Assembly: GCA_022539475.1 (NCBI GenBank)
Contig: VCMS01000051.1
Coordinates: 237,544-259,190 of the forward strand
Origin: Gracilaria domingensis
Lineage: Eukaryota; Rhodophyta; Florideophyceae; Gracilariales; Gracilariaceae
Direction: 5' to 3'
DNA length: 21,647 nt
Shown: positions 2,359-17,574 of the stretch, one piece after another
Numbering within the stretch: position 1 is the stretch's first letter
How the letters are laid out: each line of letters begins with the position of its first letter
Notes under the pieces: model-generated
Seen by the model: only the letters and a program-made list of their open reading frames with translations
Database searches by the model: none
What the model was told of the DNA's origin: nothing
Program-made: the position numbers and the translations under genes

Positions 2359-4146
2359 TCAGAGAATGAAGCGCGATGCAATGTTCCTAATGGTGGTGCA
2401 CAGGGTGTCCTGTGTACTATGCGTAGTCTCTCGATTGTGGCCGTTTTTAATCAACTTTGAGATGCCGAGATGCAAGTTGTGTAATGGTTCGAATGAGAAC
2501 AGACTGTATGGAGACAATCCCGGGATCATTCCAAGGCTTACGGAAGTTTCGAGGAACGAAGGAATGAGAGATATGGAATTTGAACGCATCAGAGTATCCG
2601 CTTGAGATCTCCTCTCCCTCGCACGACGTGGACGTCTTTCCGCCTCGTCTTTTTGTGCATGTTGCAAGATAGCTGTGTATGTCTTTCGGATGCTTTTCGT
2701 GTGCTTTTGAGAACGTCCGTTGAATGAGGTGGGAATAGGACTGCATAAAGACGAGCGAGGGGCTTTGCATCTATGACACGGGCTTTCCGTTTTGGTGCCA
2801 TGAAGAATAGACAGAATGTCCTTAGCCTCAGGAATATCCGCACAATAACTTGCAAGCAGAGGATGGCACACTCGACTTAGTTTGTCTTCGCCGATGAACT
2901 GAAAACCTTTCTGCGTGAGATTTAGAATGGGCTCCAGGACTTGACGAAGAGATTCTTGAAGGATTTGCATCCTGGACTCGCGTAGAGACTTGCTAGAAAC
3001 AAATGGCATTGCGTCTGCTTCAGATGCGGAAACCTCGATCAGTGTGGTAGGGAAGTATGCCACTACTGTGAGGTCATCACGGATACACTTACGGCGAAGC
3101 TGGTCGGAGAAGTTGAGAAATATGAGGTGAAGAGGATAGGCGGTAACCGATGTTTGCTTTAGAGTTGTTGAAGACTTATCGGTGTATACCTGCAGAAGAC
3201 CTACGAAAGATTCACTGTAACTTATTTCTTGGGAGTACCACACTATTCTACTATCCAAAGAGCCCATGACCATTTCCTTAAGTTTTGAGGTGGCGTCTCT
3301 TGCGAGAGAGCCGGACATGGGGTGAGATATTTTCGTGGAGTGGGTCTGAGGTATAGGGTGGAAGAATGTGTTTTCGTTGTTAGCCAACTGGAGCTGTTTC
3401 ACAAGTGTCTGAACGGGGTCTCTCGTGTAGAGGGTGGCGCTGAACTTACATCCTTCTGGCGAGACAGTTCTGCGATTGAAACCGTCCTTTGAGGCGTATC
3501 GTTCGAAAATGGCCTTCTTCAGTTCTGTACAGCGCTTGGAACTTGTTATGGTCTCGTTGAATCGCTTTTGCGAGAATCGCGGGTCCCGAAGTAGCCCAAT
3601 TAGCTCGTCCGCCTCACGATGACCAAGGTTGGAAGCTACTGAAGCCAGACAAACCGTGAGATAATCCATATGCAAATCACCGAGGGCCTCCTCAGAAGGC
3701 ACTGGGCGGGAACTGCTTCCGTGTTCTCGCTCTAATGACGCGGGAGCCGGGGAAGGAGAAACACAATGCAAAGTGTCCGGAATGGGAGGGGCGCACGGAG
3801 TGGGGTCGACGATGTCCTCGGACACTGGAGGCTCGGGAAGGCGACAAGGGGCAGTGACCGTTTCGGAAGATGCGGGCGCGGGTGCGGAAAGCTTGAGACG
3901 CTTGCTTCTCCGAATGGGCCGGCTATTGTCGTCTTCCAGCGCTGCTTTCAGACGAAACGGGCAATGGTTGACATGCTGTTGAAGGGATAAGACTCCTCGG
4001 CGAGTAACGAAGGGGCACCCACGCTTCTTATGTGTACAGTAGTAGACCATGGGAAGAAGAACTGAACGAGAAACGACGACAAAGACTGCAAGGGAAGGGC
4101 GTCCGAAGGGAGAAGGAGGTCGAGCGACAGTCAAGATCGACGTCAT
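2359..4146 (-). CDS. Plavaka/CACTA-like DDE transposase, N-terminal and central part, truncated
   Basis: This 595-residue leftward frame resembles transposases of the CACTA/Plavaka (tnp2-related) group, which cut and paste DNA elements. Near the N-terminus is a Cys/His cluster (C37, C44, H58, H61, C62) typical of a DNA-binding zinc finger. A Pro/Ser-rich linker follows. The central region has YTDKSSTT with D323, which fits the first catalytic Asp and is followed by an aromatic-rich segment (AYPLHLIFLN). Next come a CxxC (C457, C460) and EPLHNLHLGISK (553-564). The last matches the DxxHNxxLGxxK motif of the second catalytic acid, with Glu replacing Asp. The frame ends about 30 residues later, so the third acidic region is missing and the copy is probably dead. 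The ATG at 4146 is the longest start; an ATG at 4050, just before the zinc finger, is equally plausible. Upstream DNA is AT-rich and promoter-like. Confidence 0.6.
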   Translation of the reverse strand: MTSILTVARPPSPFGRPSLAVFVVVSRSVLLPMVYYCTHKKRGCPFVTRRGVLSLQQHVNHCPFRLKAALEDDNSRPIRRSKRLKLSAPAPASSETVTAPCRLPEPPVSEDIVDPTPCAPPIPDTLHCVSPSPAPASLEREHGSSSRPVPSEEALGDLHMDYLTVCLASVASNLGHREADELIGLLRDPRFSQKRFNETITSSKRCTELKKAIFERYASKDGFNRRTVSPEGCKFSATLYTRDPVQTLVKQLQLANNENTFFHPIPQTHSTKISHPMSGSLARDATSKLKEMVMGSLDSRIVWYSQEISYSESFVGLLQVYTDKSSTTLKQTSVTAYPLHLIFLNFSDQLRRKCIRDDLTVVAYFPTTLIEVSASEADAMPFVSSKSLRESRMQILQESLRQVLEPILNLTQKGFQFIGEDKLSRVCHPLLASYCADIPEAKDILSILHGTKTESPCHRCKAPRSSLCSPIPTSFNGRSQKHTKSIRKTYTAILQHAQKDEAERRPRRARERRSQADTLMRSNSISLIPSFLETSVSLGMIPGLSPYSLFSFEPLHNLHLGISKLIKNGHNRETTHSTQDTLCTTIRNIASRFIL

Positions 4147-4150
4147 GCTG

Positions 4151-4419
4151 AGAACGGAGAATATATTTTGAGTTCAAATCACGTGCTTTCGTTCAAAAAG
4201 GAACGTAGGTACACGTCGACCTCAACACAAGGGTGTACTTCTCGTATTATCTACCACTGGTTATAAACCTGTGGTTTCGCAACGTTGTACGCTGTACACC
4301 TGTCCAATCTCGCACAGAAAAATAAATCTCTTCCCTCCGCCGCCGCCGCCGCGCCTCCGACGTCCGACCTTCCCTTACCGTCGTGATCCGTGCCATCCAC
4401 ATCCTCGCGTTATACTCCC
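4151..4419. other. Non-coding upstream region of the transposase
   Basis: AT-rich DNA with a pyrimidine-rich tract and a short CCG triplet run around 4337-4351. Its position suggests a 5' flank or promoter for the leftward transposase. No terminal inverted repeat of that transposon could be identified. Confidence 0.3.
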
Positions 4420-4494
4420 CTCCGTCCTTCTTTTTTCCTCCCTGTACTTTATGGAGGTTCCTTAAAGTAGAGGGCGGAAAAAAGTAGGACGGAG
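4420..4494. mobile_element. Short hairpin element, MITE-like, 31-base arms
   Basis: Bases 4420-4450 and 4464-4494 are inverted copies matching at 28 of 31 positions, with no gap and a 13-base loop. The outer ends read CTCCGTCC and GGACGGAG, which resemble the CTCCCTCCGTCC ends of Stowaway/Tc1-mariner MITEs. TA lies a few bases outside the left end, but I cannot find a matching TA on the right, so the target duplication is not proven. A transcribed hairpin, such as a small-RNA precursor, is an alternative. Confidence 0.5.
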
Positions 4495-4901
4495 TCATCC
4501 GTATCTCACGGATGTATTCCGTGCAGTCTTTTCGTAGGTTCTCTTCCATATTCTTCTATGTATCTTTCCTCTAAACTAACCCATCCTCACCACGTTTTTT
4601 CGCGCTATTCGACATGTAAACGGCAGAAAATAAGCTTTGGGTTACCGGGTTCCCGTTTTCAGCCTCCAACTCGTTCCATTTGTTCAACTACGTTCTGCTT
4701 ACGATATGTTCCATCTTGTTCTACGTCTTGCTACTAACATTGAAGTGATTGAAGGTAACCACTATTTGACGTGCGTCCTTTGTATTTCTTCCGACGTCCA
4801 CAACGACTGTAAGTACGCAACCAGTTTCATTTCGTCTCTCAAGATCGATCTCTGACTGCTCGTGTAACCTATCACGCGGTATTGCCGATCTTGGTTCACT
4901 T
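4495..4901. other. Non-coding spacer
   Basis: AT-rich DNA without a convincing gene. A small inverted repeat (catccg and cggatg, 4496-4501 and 4509-4514) sits next to the hairpin element. Nothing else stands out. Confidence 0.3.
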
Positions 4902-5340
4902 TGTTGCGCCATAGGCGTCTCTAGCTTCTCGCATCTTGCGCTACTTTTGGTTTGTTGGCGATCTTGGTTCCGCCATAGACTCTTCTCTCTTCTCGCGTCT
5001 TGCGCTGCTTTTGGTGTATTGGCGATATTGGTTGATATTGGTTGACTGGCTCGGGCGATAGGTTCATCATTGGCAATCTTGGTTGACTAGGTTGCGCCAT
5101 AGGATGGTCTCTCTCTTATCGCGTCTTGCGTTACTTTTGGTGCATTGGCGATATGGTTTGACTTGGTTGCCTCATAGACTCGCCTCTCTTCTCGCGCCTT
5201 ACGTTGATCTTCTTGTATTGGCGATCTTGGTTGACTGGCTTGCGGGATAGTCGATTCTGGTACTTGGTTGCGACATAGGCTGCTCTCTCGTTTATCGCAT
5301 TTTGCGGTATGTTTGCTGCATGGGTATTCTTGGTGTCGTT
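4902..5340. repeat. Degenerate tandem repeat, about five diverged units
   Basis: Five units recur in the same order. Each has a block like TTGCGCCATAG, then a CT-rich run with TTCTCGCGTCTTGCG, then TTTTGGTGTATTGGCGAT, then CTTGGTTGACTGG. They begin near 4902, 4966, 5090, 5163 and 5263. Unit length varies from about 65 to 125 bases because of internal duplications and deletions. The block carries no supported gene. Its order and strong divergence point to an old minisatellite or an array inside a decayed transposon. Confidence 0.6.
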
Positions 5341-5615
5341 GCTTGTGAGTTCTCGCTTCGACACCTTTCGCGGTTTACGATGATATGGTGGGCTTGTAAT
5401 CTAACCGATCCCTTTCCTGCTTCTTCTTCCGTTTGCGAGTTACCAGGTCCCTCGACTTTTCTAGCGCAACGTTTCTGTTTTGTTTTATCAATGGTACGTT
5501 CCATCGCATTTCAAATGTATCTAACGGATCATTGACTAACTTATGGATACTTTCTGCTTGCGTATACAGGTAAATGACTTTTGATGCGTACGTAGCTCAC
5601 GAGTTGCAGGTGCAG
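5341..5615. other. Non-coding spacer
   Basis: Short frames only, with no recognisable motif. It separates the tandem repeat from the triple-hairpin cluster. Confidence 0.3.
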
Positions 5616-5667
5616 GTTCCTCAAGTAGGGAACCATGCATCTGGGCATGGTTCCCTACATGAGGAAC
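5616..5667. repeat. Hairpin 1 of a three-hairpin cluster, 23-base arms
   Basis: Arms 5616-5638 and 5645-5667 pair with a single mismatch around a 6-base loop. The core of each arm is TAGGGAACCATGC or its complement. The hairpin would be stable in RNA or extruded DNA. It is one base from the next hairpin. Confidence 0.7.
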
Positions 5668-5668
5668 G

Positions 5669-5701
5669 GAGAGGATGAGGCGCTTCGCGCCTCATCCTCT
5701 C
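5669..5701. repeat. Hairpin 2 of the cluster, perfect 15-base stem with 3-base loop
   Basis: GAGAGGATGAGGCGC at 5669-5683 is followed by TTC and then its exact reverse complement at 5687-5701. The stem is GC-rich and perfect. No T-run follows, so it does not look like a simple bacterial-type terminator. Confidence 0.75.
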
Positions 5702-5748
5702 GGAGTGCGTATGTGTTCTACCGATCCAGCAATTTGGTGCAGGTGCCC

Positions 5749-5768
5749 TCTGCGGCATCTGCCGCAGA
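5749..5768. repeat. Hairpin 3 of the cluster, perfect 9-base arms
   Basis: TCTGCGGCA at 5749-5757 and its exact complement at 5760-5768 flank two bases. It is the third strong inverted repeat within about 150 bases. The sequence GGTGCAGGTG just before it resembles GCAGGTGCAGG ahead of hairpin 1. Confidence 0.6.
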
Positions 5769-6022
5769 TTGGGCCTACATCCGATCCATCATGGGGAAAT
5801 GGTACATGTAATATAGCGAAGTAGTGGTTAGCAAAAGCGGTCGATAGAAGAATAGATACGAATAAAACGGTATGATTTCATAATGGGCATCATCTGTACT
5901 AGCACTAGTATTCCATGCGTTGCAGGGTATCATTCCGCAGAAGGTATCGTGTAATGTGCACCTTAATGGAAACTGAACCTAGACTTCGCGAAATACAGTT
6001 CAGGTAGCCCTCGACTAAAGAA
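5769..6022. other. Non-coding AT-rich spacer
   Basis: No supported gene or repeat was found between the hairpin cluster and the weak leftward frame that ends at 6023. Confidence 0.3.
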
Positions 6023-6478
6023 CTAGCACGAGTGGAAAACCCACCAGTATTTACTGCACAGCGATTCTGGACGACCCAAGCAATTATCTGCAGATTTTGA
6101 AATAATTGATCTCGATATTTTTTCAAAAAATTTACTGGACGACCCTTGCCAATTTCTGGACGACCCTCGCCAAAAACTAGCATCTGCAAGAGACAGACGT
6201 ACGGGCGCGGGACCAGCCTGAGCTGGAGCGTGATCTTGCCCGGAAGAACCCGGCTGGGAGGCAGCCGCCGACTGCGGGAGAGGTACAGACCGGAACGGCG
6301 GGTTGGAAACTTGCATACGTGCCGTCGAAGACGGATGGGCGTTCGGCGTGTTGGACATCGCGGCAGGGCTCGAAATGGCGAGGTTCGCTACTGACACCGG
6401 AGCTGTCAGTGGTTCCGAACAGTTCTCGGCAGACCCGTCTTGGGAGACTTCCTTATATACCTCCATCGCGAGGTGCAT
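6023..6478 (-). CDS. Hypothetical leftward frame, Ser/Pro/Ala-rich, 151 residues
   Basis: The frame starts at ATG 6476-6478 and encodes 151 residues. The first part (MHLAMEVYKEVSQDG) is helix-like. The middle is low-complexity Ser/Pro/Ala/Gln, and the C-terminus repeats a GSSRNWQGSSSKFF-type segment because the DNA there holds a short tandem repeat. I recognise no domain. The low-complexity middle and gene-poor setting would fit a Gag-like or other retroelement product, but no reverse transcriptase, protease or integrase is visible nearby. It may be non-functional. Confidence 0.35.
   Translation of the reverse strand: MHLAMEVYKEVSQDGSAENCSEPLTAPVSVANLAISSPAAMSNTPNAHPSSTARMQVSNPPFRSVPLPQSAAASQPGSSGQDHAPAQAGPAPVRLSLADASFWRGSSRNWQGSSSKFFEKISRSIISKSADNCLGRPESLCSKYWWVFHSC
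6067..6176. repeat. Short direct repeat CTGGACGACCC, three copies
   Basis: CTGGACGACCC followed by a CAA-containing stretch occurs at 6067, 6135 and 6156. The last two copies are in tandem at a 21-base period. They lie inside the weak leftward frame and encode its repeated Gly-Ser-Ser segment. Confidence 0.6.
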
Positions 6479-8384: not shown

Positions 8385-8408
8385 TTAACCCTTTTGGGAG
8401 TAAAAGTT

Positions 8409-8434
8409 CTTATGTCTAGTGAGCTAGACATAAG
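8409..8434. repeat. Palindrome copy 1 inside the piggyBac-type MITE
   Basis: Arms CTTATGTCTAG and CTAGACATAAG flank the loop TGAG. The match is perfect over 11 bases. The copy is close to the left terminus of the element. Confidence 0.85.
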
Positions 8435-8592
8435 AAATAGCCAATGAGAAGGAAAGAAACGAGTCGACCATGCGGCTGAGAGAGAGCGGTGTAACAAACC
8501 ATGTTGATTGAACTACAGGTGGTACTCGAGTTCGAATGTTATTGGTTTAATTACAAACCGATTAAATTAGGAGCCAATTGAAAAGATTTTTT

Positions 8593-8620
8593 GCTTATGT
8601 CTAGTGAGCTAGACATAAGC
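8593..8620. repeat. Palindrome copy 2 inside the piggyBac-type MITE
   Basis: Same arms as copy 1, extended by one base to 12 (GCTTATGTCTAG), with the same loop TGAG. Confidence 0.85.
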
Positions 8621-8681
8621 CAAGCTGACAAGTGGCACGCTGAAAACGATTGGTCATAGCGGCTAGCCAATCATGTTGCCC

Positions 8682-8709
8682 GCTTATGTCTAGCTCACTA
8701 GACATAAGC
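8682..8709. repeat. Palindrome copy 3 inside the piggyBac-type MITE, inverted loop
   Basis: Same 12-base arms but the loop reads CTCA, the complement of TGAG, so this copy is inverted relative to copies 1 and 2. It is seven bases inside the right terminus, roughly mirroring copy 1. Confidence 0.85.
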
Positions 8710-8730
8710 AAACCGTCTCAAAAGGGTTAA

Positions 8731-9031
8731 CCTGCAGCATTTTATTACCCGAAGGATGACCCCTACTGGCACCCGCAAACTGATGGCAAATTCGTTCTAC
8801 ACTGCCATGTAGCGAAAATGAAGCCTGCGACCCCTGCTACCCGTGTGACCGACAGCGTGACTGACACATGCGTAAGCAGCCTAAGTACCCCCTTGTAAGC
8901 ACTGGCAGAGGCTGCAAACAAGGCTACCAAACATATAGTAGTATCTCGACGAACAAAGAATGAACTTGTACATGCACTGAAAGCACTTCTTCTCATGCGT
9001 GAGGAGGTGGGTCATAAGATGGTCACCGTCG
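8731..9031 (+). pseudogene. Possible N-terminal remnant of the MutS2 gene
   Basis: A rightward frame is open from 8731 to 9078 except for one TAA at 8896-8898. After the stop it reads ALAEAANKATKHIVVSRRTK and then a helix-like NELVHALKALLLMREEVGHK. It lies directly upstream of clear MutS2 sequence in a different frame. It may be the N-terminal part of the same gene separated by a frameshift or a lost intron. I cannot align it to MutS2 by eye, so this is inference from position and composition. Confidence 0.3.
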
Positions 9032-10853
9032 GCGGATACTCTGGCGGCTGCGCGCAAAATACGGCGATCCATAGATGCTGAAGAGCATCCTTAAACGCTC
9101 TGTGGTGCATGATGTGAGTGCGTCGGGTGGCACTACATACTTGAAGCCCGCAGCAGTGCGGAACTTAAACGACCGACTTCGTATGTCGGCTACAAAGGAA
9201 AGCGCCAAAATTAGCAACGTGTTGAGGGAGTTGAGCGACTTTTGTGTCCTCTTCCACTACGATATGGTGTAGTTAAGCAAAATTCTTCGTCAGCTGGCTG
9301 TCGCTGCGGCCAATCCGAGAGCCTCTCACGAGCTGGAGGCCGTGGACGTGACGTTTGATGATTCCAACCCGCTAAGATTTCTGGGCGTGCGGCATCCACT
9401 GCTGTAATGGCGAGCCATTACACAAGCGCACTCCACACGGCCGCAAACTTCCTCCGAGCAAACAGCAGGAAGTAAAGAGCTGCTGTGGAAGCGCGATGTG
9501 CTTCCGACGAGCTATGAGCTCTCGGATGGTGTTCGATGCGTCTGTGTTACTGGCCCCAATACGGGTGGAAAAACGCTCGCGGCAAATACTCTTGGTGCGT
9601 CTGTGCTAATGGTAAAGGCTGTTATGTTTGTACTCAGCGTGTTGCAGAGAAGTGGCCATGAAGGTTCTATGTGCGCCCGGATTCCCTACTTTGATAACAT
9701 GCTTGCAGATATTGGTGATGACCAATCGCTTGTGCAATCGTATTCAACGTTCTCGGGGCACGTTGAGAAGATCAAACGTATCCAGGCCGTGAGTACGCCA
9801 GAGTAGTTGGCTTCATTGGACGAGATTGGCTCTGGAACAGTACGTATGATTTTCTTTGTGTTTGCTACAATTTGATACGAATCTATTAACTTTCTGAGTT
9901 CTGTGCGACTGTTTCATACACAGGATCCGGCTGAGGGAGCTGCGTTGGGAATGTCCATTCTCAGACATCTGGCCGTCGGCCAATGAACAGCTCTAACTTT
10001 TGCTACCACACATCATGGCGAGCATAGAACTCTAGAGTATGCGAAGGACAATTCCGCACTCTTCTTCGAGAACAAGGGCGCGGAGTTTGACGATGTGAAC
10101 ATGGTGCCGACCTATCCGTTGATCTGAGGGATACCGGGTAGGTCAAATGCTCTTGCTATTGCAGAGCGACTTGGCTTTAATTTCTCAGTCATTGAGGAGG
10201 CACGCTTTCTTTTGAAAGGAGGCTATAGCGAGAACGGGGACAGCTCACGAGTGGACATTGAGAAGATGATACCAAGCCTCGAGCGTGATAAGAACGCGGC
10301 TGAAGCTGCACGCGAGGATACGGAACGCGCTTTACGAGAATCGAAGACAATGCGTTCTGAGTTGGAGGGTCGTCTCCATCGATTACGGGAGAATGAGGCG
10401 CAGCTCAGAAAGGACCAGAAGAGTGCGATGGAACTCGAAGTGAAGCAGGCAAAGAAACAAATCGCCAAAGTTATTCGGGCGATGCAGAAAGGTGGTGGTT
10501 CTGCGCAGGCCGCAGGCCGCGAGACGGAAAAGCTGGGGAGGATGAAAGTTCCTGGTGCTGAGACTTCTCCATCGCAAGTTGTGCGATCGGAATCAATCAA
10601 CGTTGATGATGTTAGAGAATATGATAAGGTGATTGTTCCCAGGCTGAGTGCTAATGAGGTAGAGGTAGTGCAAAAGCTCAGCAAGAATGAACTGATGGTA
10701 GCTATTGGAGCGATGAAGGCAAAAGTCAAAGTCGAGGAAGTCGCATCAGTTAATCAGAGGAAGGTTAAACAGCCCAATGTCACATCCAAACGGAGGCGAG
10801 GGAACGGGACGGGTAGCAAGCAGCTCAATGTATGTACGGCACGCGGCACGTGA
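9032..10853 (+). pseudogene. mutS2: MutS2-type ATPase pseudogene, five in-frame stops
   Basis: MutS2 proteins are MutS-family ATPases that bind branched DNA or stalled ribosomes; in photosynthetic eukaryotes some are plastid-targeted. The remnant follows the family order: ADTLAAARKIRRSID, then the clamp segment VVHDVSASGGTTYLKP (9108-9155), then GVRHPLL, the Walker A motif GPNTGGKT (9552-9575), Walker B LDEIGSGT with DPAEGAALGMSI across an intron, ATTHHGE, GIPGRSNALAIAERLGFN, a long coiled coil (about 10240-10500) and a KOW-like region (DKVIVPRLS..NELMVAIGAMK). The C-terminal Smr nuclease domain is absent. Stops interrupt the frame at 9270 (TAG), 9405 (TAA), 9804 (TAG), 9984 (TGA) and 10125 (TGA). 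All lie in one frame from 9075 to 10853; only one frameshift, near 9075-9090, is seen. The intron is kept, so this is a decayed gene and not a retrocopy. Confidence 0.8.
9840..9923 (+). other. Retained spliceosomal intron in the MutS2 remnant
   Basis: An 84-base insertion sits exactly between GSGT and DPAEG of the MutS2 Walker B region. It starts GTACGT, ends CACAG, and holds CTATTAAC, a good branch-point match, about 30 bases before the acceptor. The phase is 0. Because 84 is divisible by three, the frame carries through, but the exon junction is clear from the protein motif. Confidence 0.75.
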
Positions 10854-10993
10854 ACTATCTTTCATCAAGGCTTGATTAGCAGGACAATTGATGCAAGACC
10901 AAGAACATTTGATGAGGCACGAAGAACGGCCAAACGCGTAGGTACGTCGGGCGCAAACGAACCAAAGCTCTTGCAATTTAGCGTAGCTTCCAT
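10854..10993. other. Short spacer between MutS2 remnant and recombinase gene; likely element edge
   Basis: After the TGA at 10851 the same frame stays open to the TAG at 11001, and reads DARPRTFDEARRTAKRVG. The left boundary of the recombinase-bearing element probably falls here, but no terminal repeat can be fixed. Confidence 0.3.
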
Positions 10994-12199
10994 TTACTTG
11001 TAGATCTCGCGCATTACACTTTCGTCTTGTTCATCTATCTGTTCTTCGGTAAGAGTAATGGCATGGTTCAAGAAAGCTTCGACTCCATTAAAGCGAGGTA
11101 GACTGGTTTGACAGTCGTTGTAGACCTCACAATAGTTTGAGTATGACGCAAAGTCGGACGACTTCACCAATTCCATGATAAACTCATCCTTATATCCCAA
11201 AGAACGATATAACTGTACAGCACCTCTCTTCAAAGAATGGCCGGAGTACGCCGAAGCATCTCCTTCACCAACACCGATAGATTGTAATCTACTTCGTAAT
11301 AGATCTGTAAAGCTCTTGACGGAAAATGGTGTGTTATACTGCAAAATACACCCGGCATTCGTGTTTTTCAAGTTGCAGAAGAGATATCCCTCAAACGGCC
11401 CACGCAAACAGAGCCAAACCAAAATGGCAACAAAAGGATCCATGATGATAGAATATCGTAACCACAGACTACCACACCACTCCTGAATGTTATAGGTTCT
11501 TTCCCTGGTACAGTTTTTAGTCGCTACCGGTATAGTGAGCGTGATAGTATTGCTGGTAGTTGAAACATGTTTGTAAGAAAGTTTGGTAACTTCATCATAC
11601 TGCAGTCCCAAGTTCAAGCCAACCACAATAATTGTATGCACCAAAACGTCCGTAGGCTTAACAACCTTACCATTGCCAAACCAAAATTGCTCTGCAAAGT
11701 CACAGGCTAGATGAACAGATAGAGGCCTTGTGCGCATCTTTATATCTCCTCTGCGACTCAACGTAACCCTATAAGCTCTTCTAAAATGGTTCAAGTCCTC
11801 ATTTTGTATGAGAGGGTTCCCAAAACTCCCGGAACCAGGAGATGGGTTCCATGAAGAGCGATGACCATAATTCGAGTACACGATGCGCAACCCTTGACAA
11901 AGCGCCAGCACAGAGTCATATCCAAGCATGTCATTTCGTCCATAGTTACAATGCTGCGCAATTAAATTGATAATCAGCTCTGAGCTTGAGCCACTTACCT
12001 CACGAGGATCATTAGCCTTGATTTGTTGAGCATAAGTCTGCAGTACACGTTCGGCCTTCCTTGCGTTCGCCTTCGATGCTTCGCTTGTAGCGGTGTGAAT
12101 CAGTTTCTCGACTGGAATCGGACTTTCAAAGTTTAAGGTTGCACGCTTACGTGTATTGCGTTTAGTGATCCTATTTCGAGTACCAGACCTAGTCTCCAT
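10994..12199 (-). CDS. Tyrosine recombinase, Crypton-like
   Basis: A 401-residue protein from the ATG at 12197-12199; a GTG 11 codons upstream is not needed. The N-terminus is basic (TRNRITKRNTRKR). The C-terminal half has the tyrosine recombinase layout: GLNLGLQYDEVTKLSYKHV (box I, about residues 194-212), a KN-containing beta hairpin, then SGHSLKRGAVQLYRSLG (box II, about 319-335) and a final SYSNYCEVYND with Tyr353 and Tyr356 as candidate nucleophiles. Such enzymes cut and rejoin DNA through a covalent tyrosine and move Cryptons, DIRS elements and some plasmids. Two catalytic Arg positions look altered: Gln at box I and Lys in HxxK, with Arg next to it. The frame is intact, unlike its MutS2 neighbour. 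Palindrome array 1 lies 183 bases upstream, and the gene diverges from the GCR1_C-like gene at 15231. Confidence 0.7.
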   Translation of the reverse strand: METRSGTRNRITKRNTRKRATLNFESPIPVEKLIHTATSEASKANARKAERVLQTYAQQIKANDPREVSGSSSELIINLIAQHCNYGRNDMLGYDSVLALCQGLRIVYSNYGHRSSWNPSPGSGSFGNPLIQNEDLNHFRRAYRVTLSRRGDIKMRTRPLSVHLACDFAEQFWFGNGKVVKPTDVLVHTIIVVGLNLGLQYDEVTKLSYKHVSTTSNTITLTIPVATKNCTRERTYNIQEWCGSLWLRYSIIMDPFVAILVWLCLRGPFEGYLFCNLKNTNAGCILQYNTPFSVKSFTDLLRSRLQSIGVGEGDASAYSGHSLKRGAVQLYRSLGYKDEFIMELVKSSDFASYSNYCEVYNDCQTSLPRFNGVEAFLNHAITLTEEQIDEQDESVMREIYK

Positions 12200-12381
12200 G
12201 AAGAAGAGGTTTTGAGCCCAAGATCGGAACACTAACCTCAGACGTCTAGTAACAGGTTATTTATCCGTTGGTTATCAGGCCCATTTTGGTTCCAATAAGA
12301 TACTTACTCCAAATTCGTGAAAACATCATCAAAACATTTTCTGTGCCGAAAATGAATTAAAATTTGAATGGATTGTAAACC

Positions 12382-12471
12382 ATGAACGCTCGCTGTGAAC
12401 GTACACCGTGAACGTACACCGTGAACGTACACCGTGAACGTACATCGTGAACGTTCACAGTTAACGTTCAT
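12382..12471. repeat. Palindrome array 1: seven GTGAACGTWCAC-type units, 13-base period
   Basis: Units begin at 12382, 12395, 12408, 12421, 12434, 12447 and 12460. Four central units read GTGAACGTACAC or CAT-ended variants, one is the perfect 12-base palindrome GTGAACGTTCAC, and the outer units are diverged. The one-base spacer gives a strict 13-base period. The array is about 180 bases upstream of the recombinase start codon. Confidence 0.9.
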
Positions 12472-13610
12472 AGTGTCACCTGCTCACGATGATTATACAT
12501 AGCAAAACTTTGTCCATTAGCACAGACCAACACATGGCAATAAAAAAGTTCTAGCTTTTCAATTCTACACCTAGTCCGTCTACGTCGGTGACATAAATTT
12601 ATTGCAAGATAGGGATGTTAGAGATATTGATTAATGATGTCTGAATGCCCATTCTCTTCCTATTATATTGATTCTCTGTGAAGCAATGCCACTTGCTTTT
12701 CACGAAAAGCTCCAGCCTTAAATTCATAAATGTTTGTAAAACCTCAGACATAATGGCAGATATATATGAAAGCAAAACCTCGATAAACAATATAAAGATA
12801 CTACTTCTAAAAACTTAAACGTTTTTGACTGAAACATGGATTATGATGCAGCGGTTGCCATGCAAAACGTGTTTAAAAGATCTGCACAATGTTTCCGAAC
12901 AGAATTTCATGGATCAAGACAACAAGAACATAGAAAATTCTCGCGTTGATCTTTCTTAGATCGAAAACAGACATATGTCCGCTCGACCATCCATATAGTG
13001 CCGCAAACGCGCTCGCGCAACTTACGCCGAGGTTGGTTCATCTTTTTATAAGATCAACCAAAGTGTCACCTTGACCAAGGCAAATTTAGTCGGATGTTCT
13101 CCATGAGAATACAGGTGGTAAAGGGCTTTGAAAAAAAAAACTTTTCAGCGTTCTGACTGGTAGGAACGTTTTTTTTACTTCTTTAACTGACTCAACCGTT
13201 CGTACTTCCTCTTCCATCAGACATGTTTGCGGGAACTGATGATGAAATGGAATCCTGCACAGGAGATCGAGTTTCTGGAATTATTTGACAGAAAATCATG
13301 ATGGTATTTGTCTTCATCGTCGAATAAAAGGATACATATCTGGTAGTCAAAGGCAAGAGGGATGTGCTCTAACTTACAAAGCTCTATAACAAATATTACA
13401 AAGGTAGAAGAATACGAAAAAAACCTTACAGCCAGAAAGAATATATAATTTTACAAGCACGATATAGAACTGAATGCCTTTTGTGAGACAAGCAGGTGTT
13501 CACTGTTTCATGAGGTAGATACATTTGACGATCGTTGACTTCTGTTGTCATTATTTGTACAAAAATCTCAGAGTGACTTTAACCCTCACGTTCCTGTCCC
13601 ACATCTAGAC
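12472..13610. other. AT-rich non-coding core, left part
   Basis: No supported gene on either strand. It contains A and T runs (13131-13140, 13169-13176) and short frames only. It lies between palindrome arrays 1 and 2 inside the proposed element. Confidence 0.4.
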
Positions 13611-13698
13611 GTGAACATTCACCATGAACCTTCACCGTAGCCGTGAACATTCACCGTGAACGTTCACTATACCGTGAACATTCACCGTGAACGTTCAC
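13611..13698. repeat. Palindrome array 2: six GTGAACRTTCAC units
   Basis: Units begin at 13611, 13624, 13643, 13656, 13674 and 13687. Most read GTGAACATTCAC or the perfect GTGAACGTTCAC. They form three pairs at 13-base spacing, each pair separated by 6-7 extra bases. The array is about midway between arrays 1 and 3. Confidence 0.9.
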
Positions 13699-14904
13699 CA
13701 GACTTAACTGGGGCGATGAAATGAAACCTTTCTGTATTTCATGTAGAAAAATATCTATTCATGCCATTTTCGTCCTCTCCTTTTATTTTCTTTTTTTTTT
13801 GTAAACGATCGTGTCCATTTCGACAGCAGACGTTCCATCACAGCTTACATTGCAACAATGTAGCATGATTTGGATATTAACATATAGCACACTGCGGAAA
13901 AACGCGTTTCGTGCAACTTTGTAGCTTTTGTGATTCATACTGATCGCTCCCGTACGGAGGTGAGGTAAAGCTCTTTATGAGTTGTACGATGGTTTGCCAA
14001 TTACTTGGGAATGGTCACAATGGGAATTGGTCACGGTCGTATACACAGCCTTGCTGAATTCTTCACTCACATGTAGTGCTTGCCACGTCCATTCATAGGG
14101 AGAACTAGTATTATTTGTAACCTTGTAGATATTTAGAATATCGTAATCGATAAATTAAGTAAATTAAGTAATCTAGTGCACACCTAAGCAGGTCCATACA
14201 CGTGGTACGCGTGACAAGCCGCGGCAGCGGCCAGTAAAATATCCGACAAGCATAAAAAAACATGTGTGAACACACCCAATCCTACACACGCGTACACGCG
14301 ACCAACACTCATCTGCGCCACGTCATGGCCGGACCCTCAGGGTACCGTACCTCAATACCGCCGAAAGCATCCCATCCGTGGGCCAATACCCATACCGTCC
14401 GAGTACCCGGAATCGTCACGGCCCGTGCTACATCAGTGTCTGTGTGTGTGTCTCGTGACATCTCACTCCCAGCATCGCCGTTGTCTACACAACATCCCAG
14501 ACTTCTAGGCAGACTCTCTTGAGCTCTATACGCCCGAAGTGACGGTTTGCTCTCGGCTTACACCCAACTCGTTGCACTATTTCTAGCAGCGCAATATCTG
14601 CTGTGATTACCTCTTGGAGGGAAGGTCCCGTACGCCTTTTGTGCCTTCCTTTACAGGGGTTTCCACTACACACACCATGGAAGCGCAGCTAGGTTGTGTT
14701 TCAGTTCTAAAACTTTTTGAGTTCTCAAACTCAGTCATCCACCTCTAGACCTTGGCATCAAAATTAAACTTTTTTCTTTTGGATGAGTTGTTTATGGTAT
14801 ATATGTACTGTAATATTGGTAACGGTTTTCGTTAGACACAAAAATGGCGTGTTGCCCTTAACTGTCAGATGGCATCACTGATGGTGGCACCATAATCGTT
14901 TACG
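13699..14904. other. Non-coding core, right part, with a GC-rich island
   Basis: No supported gene. Most is AT-rich, with the tandem AAATTAAGT near 14153-14170. Bases about 14190-14690 are clearly richer in C and G and CpG than their surroundings and give only poor, low-complexity frames. That island may be a separate insertion or a promoter-like segment. Confidence 0.35.
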
Positions 14905-14986
14905 GTAAACGTTTACGGTGAACTTTGACGTTCACGGTGAACGTCACTGTGAACGTTCACTGTGAACGTTCACGGCGAGCGTTCAA
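14905..14986. repeat. Palindrome array 3: about six GTGAACGTTCAC-type units
   Basis: Units begin at 14905 (GTAAACGTTTAC), 14918 (arms split by extra bases), 14937 (one base short), 14949 and 14962 (both perfect) and 14975 (diverged). Period is 12-13 bases in the right half. The array ends 245 bases upstream of the ATG at 15231. Confidence 0.88.
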
Positions 14987-15230
14987 GGCTAACTTACAGC
15001 TAGAACAATCATGACTATTCAATGTTAGGAAAAGATCTTAATGTTTTAAAATTATCTTATGTACTCAAAAAGCATGTAAAACATTTTGGAAATTTGGGAA
15101 AAAATTTTACTTCGACGTTTTCATAGATACTCAAGAGAAGATTACCATGATCTGCCCATGTTCACGTTTGTTTTGGCATTTGACCTCATTTGGTGAGTTT
15201 GGTGTCTTTTGACGTCCCGGTGCTTTGCTA

Positions 15231-16022
15231 ATGGAAAGAAGAGGTACTTCATCTGCTACCCAAGGAGGAGGAAAAGGGAATGGGTTTGTGGTTCCAGTCC
15301 AGATTAAAGCTGAGAAGGAAACAGGTCCTGGAATCGTTAGGCACATTTTGAAATCTGCGAACGGATGGGTGGCAGATCGTCAGCTTTCATTGGAATTCGA
15401 AGAAGAAGTCAATTTGGAAAACCAGGTAAGGCATGATGAAGTCCACTTGCGATTGCTGGAGAGGAGGCTTAGGCATCTAATGGAAAGAAGAAACCAATCG
15501 TGTGAGAGCTGCCTGACTGTTCAGGGTGGAGGTGGGGATGCAGATTTTCACGACAAGAGTAGTAATGAAGTCGATAAGGATAGGGTTCGGAGAAATACCA
15601 CCGTAGCTGCTGAAGGGAAGAAGGTAGGTAAGAATCGTACCGATGCATCTCTGATCAAGCCTTTCATTCCTGGACTACCGAATAGTATCGAGAAAGTAAT
15701 TGAAATATGGAACCACGGGATTATTTCTCAAGGAGTTCTTCCTTTGCGTCTGCTACGTGATGCGAAAAGTAGATCTAAACTCTTACGGGGGTATTCAAAC
15801 AATGTATGGTCTAATGGTGGACAGAAAAGCGCATTCAAAAGATACAAGAAGCTTGTTCTGTGTGTGTCTGAATTTGCGCCCCTCACTCTGAACATATACG
15901 AGGACATCAATATGTCGTCCTGGAGCGCAGCACTAGAGGCATATCATAGAGTTTATGATGTGAATGGTAGTCCAAGATGTTTGACAGCCGTGATCAAACT
16001 TTACAACTCTAACGAGTTGTGA
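15231..16022 (+). CDS. Protein with GCR1_C-like DNA-binding domain
   Basis: A 263-residue protein from the ATG at 15231. Residues about 52-90 are charged and predicted helical (LEFEEEVNLENQ, LRLLERRLRHLMERR), and a low-complexity linker with a CxxC follows. Residues about 146-238 resemble the GCR1_C fold: IPGLPNSIEKVIEIWNHGI, then a PLRLL segment, then VWSNGGQKSAFKRYKKLV. This has the family pattern of Trp, Gly, Leu, then Trp and a basic helix. GCR1_C occurs in yeast Gcr1, Msn1 and Hot1 and, in several lineages, in Crypton recombinase proteins. Here it is a separate gene divergent from the recombinase at 12199. Its likely role, by inference, is to bind the palindrome arrays between the two genes. 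It ends in TGA at 16020. CAGGTAAGG near 15423 resembles a splice donor, but the frame is open through it. Confidence 0.5.
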   Translation: MERRGTSSATQGGGKGNGFVVPVQIKAEKETGPGIVRHILKSANGWVADRQLSLEFEEEVNLENQVRHDEVHLRLLERRLRHLMERRNQSCESCLTVQGGGGDADFHDKSSNEVDKDRVRRNTTVAAEGKKVGKNRTDASLIKPFIPGLPNSIEKVIEIWNHGIISQGVLPLRLLRDAKSRSKLLRGYSNNVWSNGGQKSAFKRYKKLVLCVSEFAPLTLNIYEDINMSSWSAALEAYHRVYDVNGSPRCLTAVIKLYNSNEL

Positions 16023-16314
16023 TGCCGGTGGCGCTGCTCCGGGCATTGTGCTCGTCATCACGCCGCTGCTGTCGCAAATGCATGACGAGCAGGATGTGCT
16101 TGACGAGGCGAGCAAGAACGCAATCGACTTCATCCTCGACATGTATCAAGGGCTGCAGCGATTAAGCGCAACAATAAAGTGCGAATTTGAATTTTTTGAA
16201 TCATGGCATATGAACCTGGCGCACGATGTGTTCAAGTCTCATAGTGAGGTACGACAAAGAGCTAGGATACTTCGGATCTCAACTTCTTCAGCGCTTAGTA
16301 AGAATTCTTACTAA
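16021..16314 (+). other. Open segment upstream of and in frame with the 16315 gene
   Basis: In the frame of the 16315 gene the sequence is open from 15994 and reads DAGGAAPGIVLVITPLLSQM, then a helical DEASKNAIDFILDMYQGLQRL, up to a TAA at 16312-16314. The first 120 bases are GC-rich, unlike what follows. The segment could be the true N-terminus of the next gene, cut off by a nonsense codon or joined by an intron, or the start of flanking DNA at the element's right edge. Confidence 0.4.
16295..16314. repeat. Perfect 20-base palindrome at the stop/start junction
   Basis: TTAGTAAGAATTCTTACTAA is perfectly self-complementary. Its last three bases are the in-frame TAA, and the ATG of the next frame begins at the following base. 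It contains GTAAGA, a splice-donor-like hexamer, and CTTACTAA, which resembles a branch point. Confidence 0.85.
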
Positions 16315-17574
16315 ATGGAAAGGTATCAAGACGCACTAAAGTCAACGCATCTGCGAACGAGTATAGCGACTCTGAATGATCGTCTAGTGAGTCTCAATGT
16401 TTCCGAAAGCGGCGATAACCTTTTTGAACGTCTTCGTCTCCGTGCATCTGGTGTTGTGAACGATCTACCCGAGAGTATACAAACAGAGCTTCGTAATCTG
16501 CATTCTAGATCAGCCCGATCTAATCCGGTTAAGAAGGCTCTGCATGAGAATCTGGGTACGTTTTGGCGGTGTCTGAGGGGATTAACTACCTCATTGAGAG
16601 GCGACGAAGATGCCGGTGTTCGCGCTTTGGCCCGCAAGGCAGCCGAAATTATACCCTTGATCCACGAAATCCACCGCATGATGCCACCTTGGATTACCGA
16701 GCTTCCAGTATTGTTCTTACTCACGTCAATAGGATTTCAGTGGTACATTTTTTCCCATATGCATCGTGAAATAGCTGTGTCTCCGCCAGAAGAGGGAAAC
16801 AAGAAGCTTCTCTGGCTTGCCAGATTGAACGCAAAAGAAGAGAAAGATTACATGAAGACGTTTCTAACCACCTTTCAACAATACATTCCAAGAATTCATC
16901 AAAACGGATTTGATAGCGTGGTCGTGGCAGATATATCCCACCCATCGTCCACATGTTCTGCTTTCTCGGGCGAGGGTCGTAAAAATCTTGGGAGATGTAC
17001 AATACTTCTCCAGGATATGTGTGCCTATATTCCTTTTGGAATGGCTATGTCAGGATTCAGGAGAAATAATGTTGCAAACTGCTGGTTGAGAATGGACAAT
17101 GTTGTTGTCTCAACAAAAAACATTGTGAAACGAAAATCGAAGGAATCAGTTGTTGATAACGCATATGACAAATGTGGATGCTGTTACCCGTTTCTTGACA
17201 AACTTCGACAATTGACCTCAGGAACGGTTTCAAAAGTTATGAGTGCTGCTATCTTGGAGCACGCTGTGGCATCTGGCTTGTCTGGGCGTCCGGAGCCGAG
17301 AACTTTCGACGAAGTTTGTCGTTTTTGGGAGATATTAAGCTACATGGCGAGCCCTATGTTCCGGCGTATAATTCACAAACATGGCCTGGAGCCGGTTACT
17401 GAGAAAGGAAGGAACGCTTTGACATTGAAGAATTCTTTTAATGTTATCAAGGATGAGCTACGTGAGCTGTACTACTTTTTTCTCCTTTTGGATGTCATCC
17501 TCGACGACAACTTAAAAGTTTTCGATGACGTTGTTGCTCTCGTAGTTCATAAGAAACGTAGAACAGAAAGATAA
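16315..17574 (+). CDS. Unrecognised protein of 419 residues
   Basis: An intact frame from ATG 16315 to TAA 17572-17574. The N-terminal half is helical and basic (SARSNPVKKALHENL, RALARKAAEIIPLIHEIHRM). A hydrophobic stretch, ITELPVLFLLTSIGFQWYIF (about 129-148), could be one membrane segment or a buried helix. Later features are KCGCCYPF (about 287-294) and an Asp-rich FLLLDVILDDNLKVFDDV near the end. I recognise no family. It follows the GCR1_C-like gene on the same strand, with 292 bases between, so it may be cargo of the same element. Base composition matches the AT-rich element, not the GC-rich block to the right. The upstream in-frame segment suggests a longer original protein. Confidence 0.5.
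   Translation: MERYQDALKSTHLRTSIATLNDRLVSLNVSESGDNLFERLRLRASGVVNDLPESIQTELRNLHSRSARSNPVKKALHENLGTFWRCLRGLTTSLRGDEDAGVRALARKAAEIIPLIHEIHRMMPPWITELPVLFLLTSIGFQWYIFSHMHREIAVSPPEEGNKKLLWLARLNAKEEKDYMKTFLTTFQQYIPRIHQNGFDSVVVADISHPSSTCSAFSGEGRKNLGRCTILLQDMCAYIPFGMAMSGFRRNNVANCWLRMDNVVVSTKNIVKRKSKESVVDNAYDKCGCCYPFLDKLRQLTSGTVSKVMSAAILEHAVASGLSGRPEPRTFDEVCRFWEILSYMASPMFRRIIHKHGLEPVTEKGRNALTLKNSFNVIKDELRELYYFFLLLDVILDDNLKVFDDVVALVVHKKRRTER

Follow-up and report, generated by a model that had tools for sequence, protein, structure and literature searches.

What is the unit of two open, divergent genes and three clusters of palindromes that stands in a stretch of DNA from the red alga Gracilaria domingensis? 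The stretch, which we call the window, comprises 21,647 nucleotides, the final 21.6 kb of contig C51 in a genome of 77.9 Mb and 680 contigs. One of the two genes encodes a tyrosine recombinase (YR), the other a protein that we call the partner. We consider it probable, at roughly three chances in four, that the unit is an end-damaged and probably inactive copy of a family of two-gene YR DNA transposons in this alga, moving via short end repeats and with the partner as DNA-binding protein. A family of mobile elements in which a tyrosine recombinase is accompanied by palindrome arrays and by a conserved partner encoded in its own gene is supported by the comparisons below.

The gene pair, its copies and their ends

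The unit has the following parts:

10994..12199, minus strand: YR gene; open reading frame (ORF) of 401 aa, Cre-like fold by fold comparison
12380..12475: palindrome array 1; GTGAACGTTCAC-type sites every 13 bp, six in all (12395-12471)
13606..13702: palindrome array 2; sites with a period of 32 bp, six in all (13611-13698)
14890..14990: palindrome array 3; four sites (at most 2 mismatches) at 14905-14973
15231..16022, plus strand: partner gene; ORF of 263 aa

An earlier interpretation made without database searches, the sequence-only reading, had described two intact divergent genes about 3 kb apart, with three palindrome arrays, the outer two at about 180 and 245 bases from the start codons. 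All of this stands. Both ORFs are open, with 3031 bp between their starts; GTGAACGTTCAC with at most two mismatches has 16 sites in the window, all within the three arrays, against an expectation of 0.94; 100 dinucleotide shuffles gave 4 at the most. Measured upstream from the recombinase ATG, array 1 has its sites at 196-272 bp; the end of array 3 lies 246-258 bp upstream of the partner ATG.

Genome searches yielded 61 YR and 47 partner matched stretches, which merge into 39 YR and 34 partner loci. At 28 of the 39 YR loci a partner lies no more than 5 kb away, divergent at 24 of them, on the same strand at 4 and convergent at 0; these 28 are not independent events, as many are copies of one another. 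The gene order that the sequence-only reading had attributed to a new element is thus found many times over. Among the divergent pairs are nine near-identical copies of the window unit (window included), six of a C1 subfamily with about 48% protein identity to the window subfamily, and four of a C49 subfamily. On C56 and C221, recombinase and partner are 32-34 kb apart with palindromes near, possibly as one element; a MutS2-like gene lies there on the partner side, in the window on the recombinase side. A sequence to the right of the C20 partner is also present, in inverted orientation, near the recombinase on both these contigs.

The C1 subfamily has exact ends. Its copies on C1, C7, C29 (two) and C70 are 98-100% alike and occupy four insertion sites, each bounded by 5-bp CATTA direct repeats. 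The left ends read AAAGT-CATTA, CACC-CATTA, AATAAT-CATTA and TCCAA-CATTA, each followed by CCTGCCATAAGAACCGTC, and the right ends GGACAATAATCCTA-CATTA, followed by CCGACC, CCAAGA, TTGAGA and TTATTT. The left-end 23-mer has 5 exact occurrences in the genome and 8 with 1-3 mismatches, the right-end 22-mer 6 exact ones, and the reversed control of either has 0. On C29 the two copies stand head to tail with a period of 7964 and a single CATTA between them. Because of the CATTA ends, the different flanks and the one-CATTA tandem junction, we favour circle-type integration by a YR for this subfamily; such an event should leave ends and a junction of this form. The relation to Cryptons proposed in the sequence-only reading is upheld to this extent, through the Crypton-like integration seen at the ends of a sister subfamily.

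The element of this C1 subfamily spans about 7.96 kb and encodes a YR of 415 aa and a partner of 289 aa, both of which were scanned with NCBIfam and PHROGs. Near its ends we found by eye only a 9-bp inverted match. No reverse transcriptase was detected in the 11 distinct frames scanned with Pfam, of 32 frames of at least 90 aa. A RING-finger gene lies between the ends (L046 1758-2279, minus strand) and is a possible cargo or control gene. C315 has the right end, but a left end to match it is missing from where one would be expected. The left-end motifs with 1-3 mismatches are on C43, C23, C312, C41, C109, C159, C509 and C612, away from the YR matches listed (the C109 motif is some 10 kb distant from a partner match), and are possibly non-autonomous or further diverged relatives of the C1 subfamily.

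In the mechanism that we propose, the recombinase would excise the element as a circle through recombination between its short terminal direct repeats, which in the C1 subfamily are CATTA, and the circle would integrate at another such short sequence with no other target duplication. The partner would be the element's own sequence-specific DNA-binding protein, occupying the arrays that travel with the gene pair; from there it may control both promoters, help to assemble the recombination complex, or both.

Palindromes, recombinase and partner

The palindromes co-localise with the genes. The exact GTGAACGTTCAC 12-mer occurs 77 times in the genome (reversed control 6), and 45 of the 50 sites listed have a YR or partner match no more than 10 kb away. 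Among diverged copies its place differs: on C35 it lies downstream of the partner, on C51b it stands between the two genes, and on C221 it is found upstream of the YR. It is absent at loci L046-L050 (the C1, C29, C70, C49 and C18 loci); at those on C1, C70 and C49 different palindromes are found, most of them within repeats of 161 or 154 bp outside the gene pair. Palindrome arrays are therefore common to the subfamilies, with a subfamily-specific sequence and a variable position. The symmetric three-array layout emphasised in the sequence-only reading holds in the window, but not in the C1 and C49 subfamilies, where the repeat arrays are outside the gene pair, nor on C35, where the 12-mer is downstream of the partner.

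Because the array sequence is specific to the subfamily, we infer that an element-encoded protein, likeliest the partner, reads the palindromes. It is unlikely, by comparison, that a host factor or the recombinase binds the arrays while the partner acts otherwise, for instance as a recombinase subunit with a structural or regulatory role. The location of arrays inside or outside the gene pair depending on subfamily would fit such an arrangement, as would the long helices predicted for the N-terminal half of the partner. Host sites, however, would not be expected to cluster with the gene pair as the 12-mer does, nor to be replaced by other palindromes where the element proteins have changed.

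The window YR has a Cre-like fold. Its catalytic positions, which we assigned by the spacing in Cre, are Q200 (the first catalytic arginine, Arg I, being lost), K228, H321, K324 (at the second, Arg II), S347 and Y356. In an alignment of 22 YR rows, the Arg I column holds 18 R, 2 S, 1 Q and 1 W; the histidine is kept in 21 rows and the tyrosine in all 22, and the Arg II position is a lysine in all 22. The window copy shares its Gln at Arg I with C577, whereas the other readable near-identical copies differ.

Protein searches found 13 YR relatives, including one from Gracilariopsis chorda (P0009) and a transcript record; of 17 pattern matches in viral contigs, 0 were confirmed as viral relatives. 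In a YR tree rooted at the midpoint, without outgroup, the window, C88, C464, C51b and C35 proteins form one clade (100/100) with the transcript record P0024, which has a long branch, and the C1 and C49 lineages fall outside it. Comparison of the window YR with C51b (proportion of replacement differences, pN, 0.148; of silent differences, pS, 0.818) and with C35 (pN 0.261, pS 0.854), in both of which silent sites are saturated, points to long-term purifying selection on the recombinase. The YRs of C1 and C70 differ by 3 silent and 3 replacement changes, those of C49 and C18 by 6 and 5; few as these changes are, both pairs lean towards constraint.

The partner has 11 relatives among 5.8 billion proteins, including two from G. 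domingensis (FGB62_241g05, FGB62_251g014) and one from Gracilariopsis chorda (P0014), an alga that has both a YR and a partner relative. A 3,758-bp contig is listed for both P0001, a YR relative, and P0016, a partner relative, which may thus stand side by side in another organism. The partner begins MERxG..QGGGxGxGF, as do its relatives: QGGGxGxG is near the start in 12 of 12 aligned proteins, and 11 of the 12 begin with ME, P0021 having 12 residues ahead of it. Long helices are predicted for the N-terminal part, followed by a conserved C-terminal domain at about residues 143-263 (predicted local distance difference test, pLDDT, mostly near 90) in which W160, G163, P171, R181, Y188, W193, G197, Q198, K199 and W231 are invariant in the 12 proteins. 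A further VIA fold comparison covered mostly the N-terminal helices, and we do not call the fold of the C-terminal domain new. The window and C35 partners differ with pN 0.395 and pS 0.837, the C35 gene carrying one stop codon, and those of C1 and C70 differ by a single replacement.

The window copy and its flanks

The block around the window unit recurs on C88, C464, C528, C41, C388, C295, C577, C253, C485 and C20, and its copies carry decayed MutS2-like, helicase-like and GCD14 genes, whole or in part. The window copy is a passenger in this segmental duplication. Between recent copies, the YR shows 1 silent and 3 replacement differences (Sd 1, Nd 3) for window and C88, and Sd 0, Nd 9 for window and C464 as for window and C528; the partner shows Sd 1, Nd 5 with C88 and Sd 3, Nd 12 with C20. 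Relative to the window, C464 differs by 0.75% in the YR, 0.76% in the partner and 0.76% between the genes, alike in all three; on C528 the corresponding values are similar (0.75%, 1.16% and 0.70%), whereas on C88 the genes are less changed (0.33%, 0.76% and 1.16%). Overall, these counts suggest little or no constraint on the genes of the recent copies. The sequence-only reading had seen in the intact frames amid decayed neighbours a hint of selection or of recent arrival. With no silent excess, coding change close to intergenic on C464 and C528 (on C88 the YR is less changed than the intergenic part), and Arg I lost in the window copy, the open frames support neither of these, and selection is rejected as their cause. 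The copy is worn, end-damaged and probably inactive.

This raises the question of whether the unit is no more than two leftover genes in a multi-copy segmental duplication, with no function at the level of an element. The decayed host genes that accompany it in the copies and the lack of a silent excess would be explained in this way, and the description is true of the window copy. Yet the gene pair recurs in many diverged contexts, the C1 subfamily has precise ends, and the YR on C88 has changed less than its intergenic sequence, which together make this explanation doubtful for the unit as such.

The immediate flanks are these:

8742..10840, plus strand: decayed MutS2-like host gene; abuts the recombinase side, 3' part missing, copies elsewhere in the genome
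10841..10993: 153-bp spacer separating the recombinase stop codon from the MutS2-like pseudogene
16030..16240, plus strand: helicase-like host gene fragment; adjoins the partner side

The MSSS domain of the MutS2-like gene scores just below the curated Pfam cut-off, and its missing 3' part is presumably Smr-like. The helicase-like fragment we take to be RecQ-like, by motifs only; Pfam found a GRF zinc finger alone in the helicase part on C20 and nothing in the window fragment. On either side the window unit seems to have been rearranged, because the MutS2 copies on C73, C56 and C221 run on past the junction at 10840, where their match to the window stops, and because C20 holds 2.8 kb between partner gene and helicase fragment that have no counterpart in the window. 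The recombinase-side end of the element may lie inside the 153-bp spacer or may have been replaced by it.

Several candidate ends were rejected. Homology in diverged copies breaks sharply at 10991-10994 and at 16022, but these positions coincide with stop codons and may mark the limit of coding conservation. The 763-bp direct repeats around the C464 block look like a long terminal repeat (LTR) inserted at both places; this LTR-like repeat (TGTAG...CAACA) is seen on C464, C528, C485 and C253, at window-equivalent 10201 and/or 21449. A common target site for L048 and L050 was dropped, the shared flank belonging to a different repeat, which interrupts the partner gene of L050. Near the right junction of a C49-subfamily element there is a near-perfect 121-bp hairpin (L049 8063-8183).

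Elsewhere in the window, a Plavaka-type transposase ORF (2359-4146) stands beside a 2-kb stretch (about 4200-6200) that is found at 99-100% identity in at least 36 further places and reads as a recently very active element. The sequence at about 8388-8735 resembles a short piggyBac-type element; it reads TTAACCCTTTTGGGAG ... CTCAAAAGGGTTAA and has CTTATGTCTAG palindromes inside, and a part of it is also beside the recombinase on C56. A 419-aa ORF at 16315-17574, in which no Pfam family was recognised, lies inside the block common to the copies.

Points against mobility and relation to known elements

Several observations weigh against reading the unit as a copy of a mobile element with a DNA-binding partner. 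No ends of the window subfamily could be fixed via C20, C56, C221, C73, C51b or C35, and for the C49 subfamily no common direct repeat was resolved; mobility of the window subfamily is argued by analogy with the sister C1 subfamily, at the protein identity given above. Eleven of the 39 YR loci have no partner match within 5 kb, some of these loci being truncated by a contig end or by another repeat (e.g. C577, C517, C18). Five of the 50 listed 12-mers are far from the genes (C16, C42, C154, C155, C264), and the variation in array position among subfamilies weakens the case for a simple promoter-operator role. Catalysis by the YR is not assured by homology, because Arg II is a lysine in every row. 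The partner has no recognised fold or family: its fold search gave no match with E < 0.001 in PDB or BFVD (solved and viral structures), and all its matches are weak or sub-threshold, for example those to a phosphoprotein chain (E 0.0045) and to SdiA (E 0.0087, far below its cut-off).

The sequence-only reading had called the partner GCR1_C-like. The partner's conserved W..G..P..L..W..R.K pattern does resemble GCR1_C by eye, which we treat as a lead only. Profile searches found GCR1_C (PF12550) in 0 of 12 partner proteins at E values up to 10 and nowhere in the genome, control genomes giving none either; GCR1_C homology can thus not be upheld as shown, and the absence of a profile match is an outcome that the sequence-only reading had itself named as refuting. 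No Crypton- or captain-type YR family (including DUF3435) matched the 12 YR proteins in Pfam with HMMER filters on, where Phage_integrase itself matched only one of the 12. That the unit is a CryptonF of known type whose YR and GCR1_C parts have split into two genes is accordingly improbable, since the Cre fold, the short terminal repeats and the partner pattern that would suit it are set against these absences and the invariant lysine. Short terminal direct repeats such as those of the C1 subfamily are found in fungal and oomycete Cryptons (in parts of PMC3212892).

What remains is a real, Crypton-like group of red-algal YR transposons in several subfamilies, which share the habit of palindrome arrays and a conserved partner gene. 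We do not file it as Crypton, although it works like one, because the Arg II lysine departs from the R-H-R-Y tetrad. As in the Cryptons of fungi, oomycetes, a diatom and animals, a YR, identified here by the fold of the window protein, is the sole recognised recombinase, and there are no long terminal inverted repeats. The sections of PMC3212892 on these elements give terminal direct repeats of 4-6 bp, compared with CATTA here, a circle route described or proposed, boundaries that are hard to characterize and, in some Cryptons, a second protein, a C48 peptidase, where our elements have the partner. Unlike Cryptons, they have a separate divergent partner gene without detectable GCR1_C, palindrome arrays, a lysine at the second catalytic arginine and a red-algal host; separate genes also set them apart from CryptonF. 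From DIRS and Ngaro retrotransposons they differ in that the 11 frames scanned hold no reverse transcriptase.

Comparison with other systems places the group similarly. Starships, too, are YR-driven eukaryotic DNA elements with other genes (here the RING gene), but the C1 element measures 8 kb rather than being giant, and ours have a partner gene and lack a captain-family match under the search settings above. Cre and the YRs of prokaryotic integrative elements differ in that we have a eukaryotic element with partner gene and arrays and only the 9-bp inverted match near its ends. En/Spm (CACTA) elements encode TnpA and TnpD and resemble ours in pairing one catalytic with one second protein and in short repeated motifs near genes or ends; their DDE transposase, terminal inverted repeats and target duplications are not seen here. 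Few eukaryotic DNA transposons are known to be moved by tyrosine recombinases.

We met no description of a YR DNA transposon of red algae in the portions of the literature covered, a scope outside which lie Repbase, preprints and most subscription journals. Rhodophyta has 0 occurrences in the main text of the Crypton paper PMC3212892. Among sources covered in part, PMC3627910 reports Fanzor elements in the red alga Cyanidioschyzon and has Crypton passages without a red-algal one, PMC6338049 describes Gypsy- and DIRS-clade retrotransposons with DNA methylases in some groups including Rhodophyta, a plant repeat table in PMC8729191 has a Crypton row, and the relevant portion of PMC8533490 describes no red-algal Crypton.

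More broadly, we put forward only tentatively, at a little under even odds, that these elements form a red-algal superfamily of two-component YR transposons. The dedicated partner, without kinship to any known DNA-binding family, would read the arrays specific to its element and thereby control recombination and its assembly, and the recombinase would work with a lysine at Arg II. A red alga with several subfamilies, one of them with exact ends, different sites and a tandem insertion, makes the circle route of Cryptons directly testable. The invariant lysine at Arg II, together with a partner accompanied by subfamily-specific arrays, is a natural experiment on the control of a recombinase and, if it is true that the partner binds its arrays, the two genes would be a modular pair of recombinase and specificity protein in a eukaryote.

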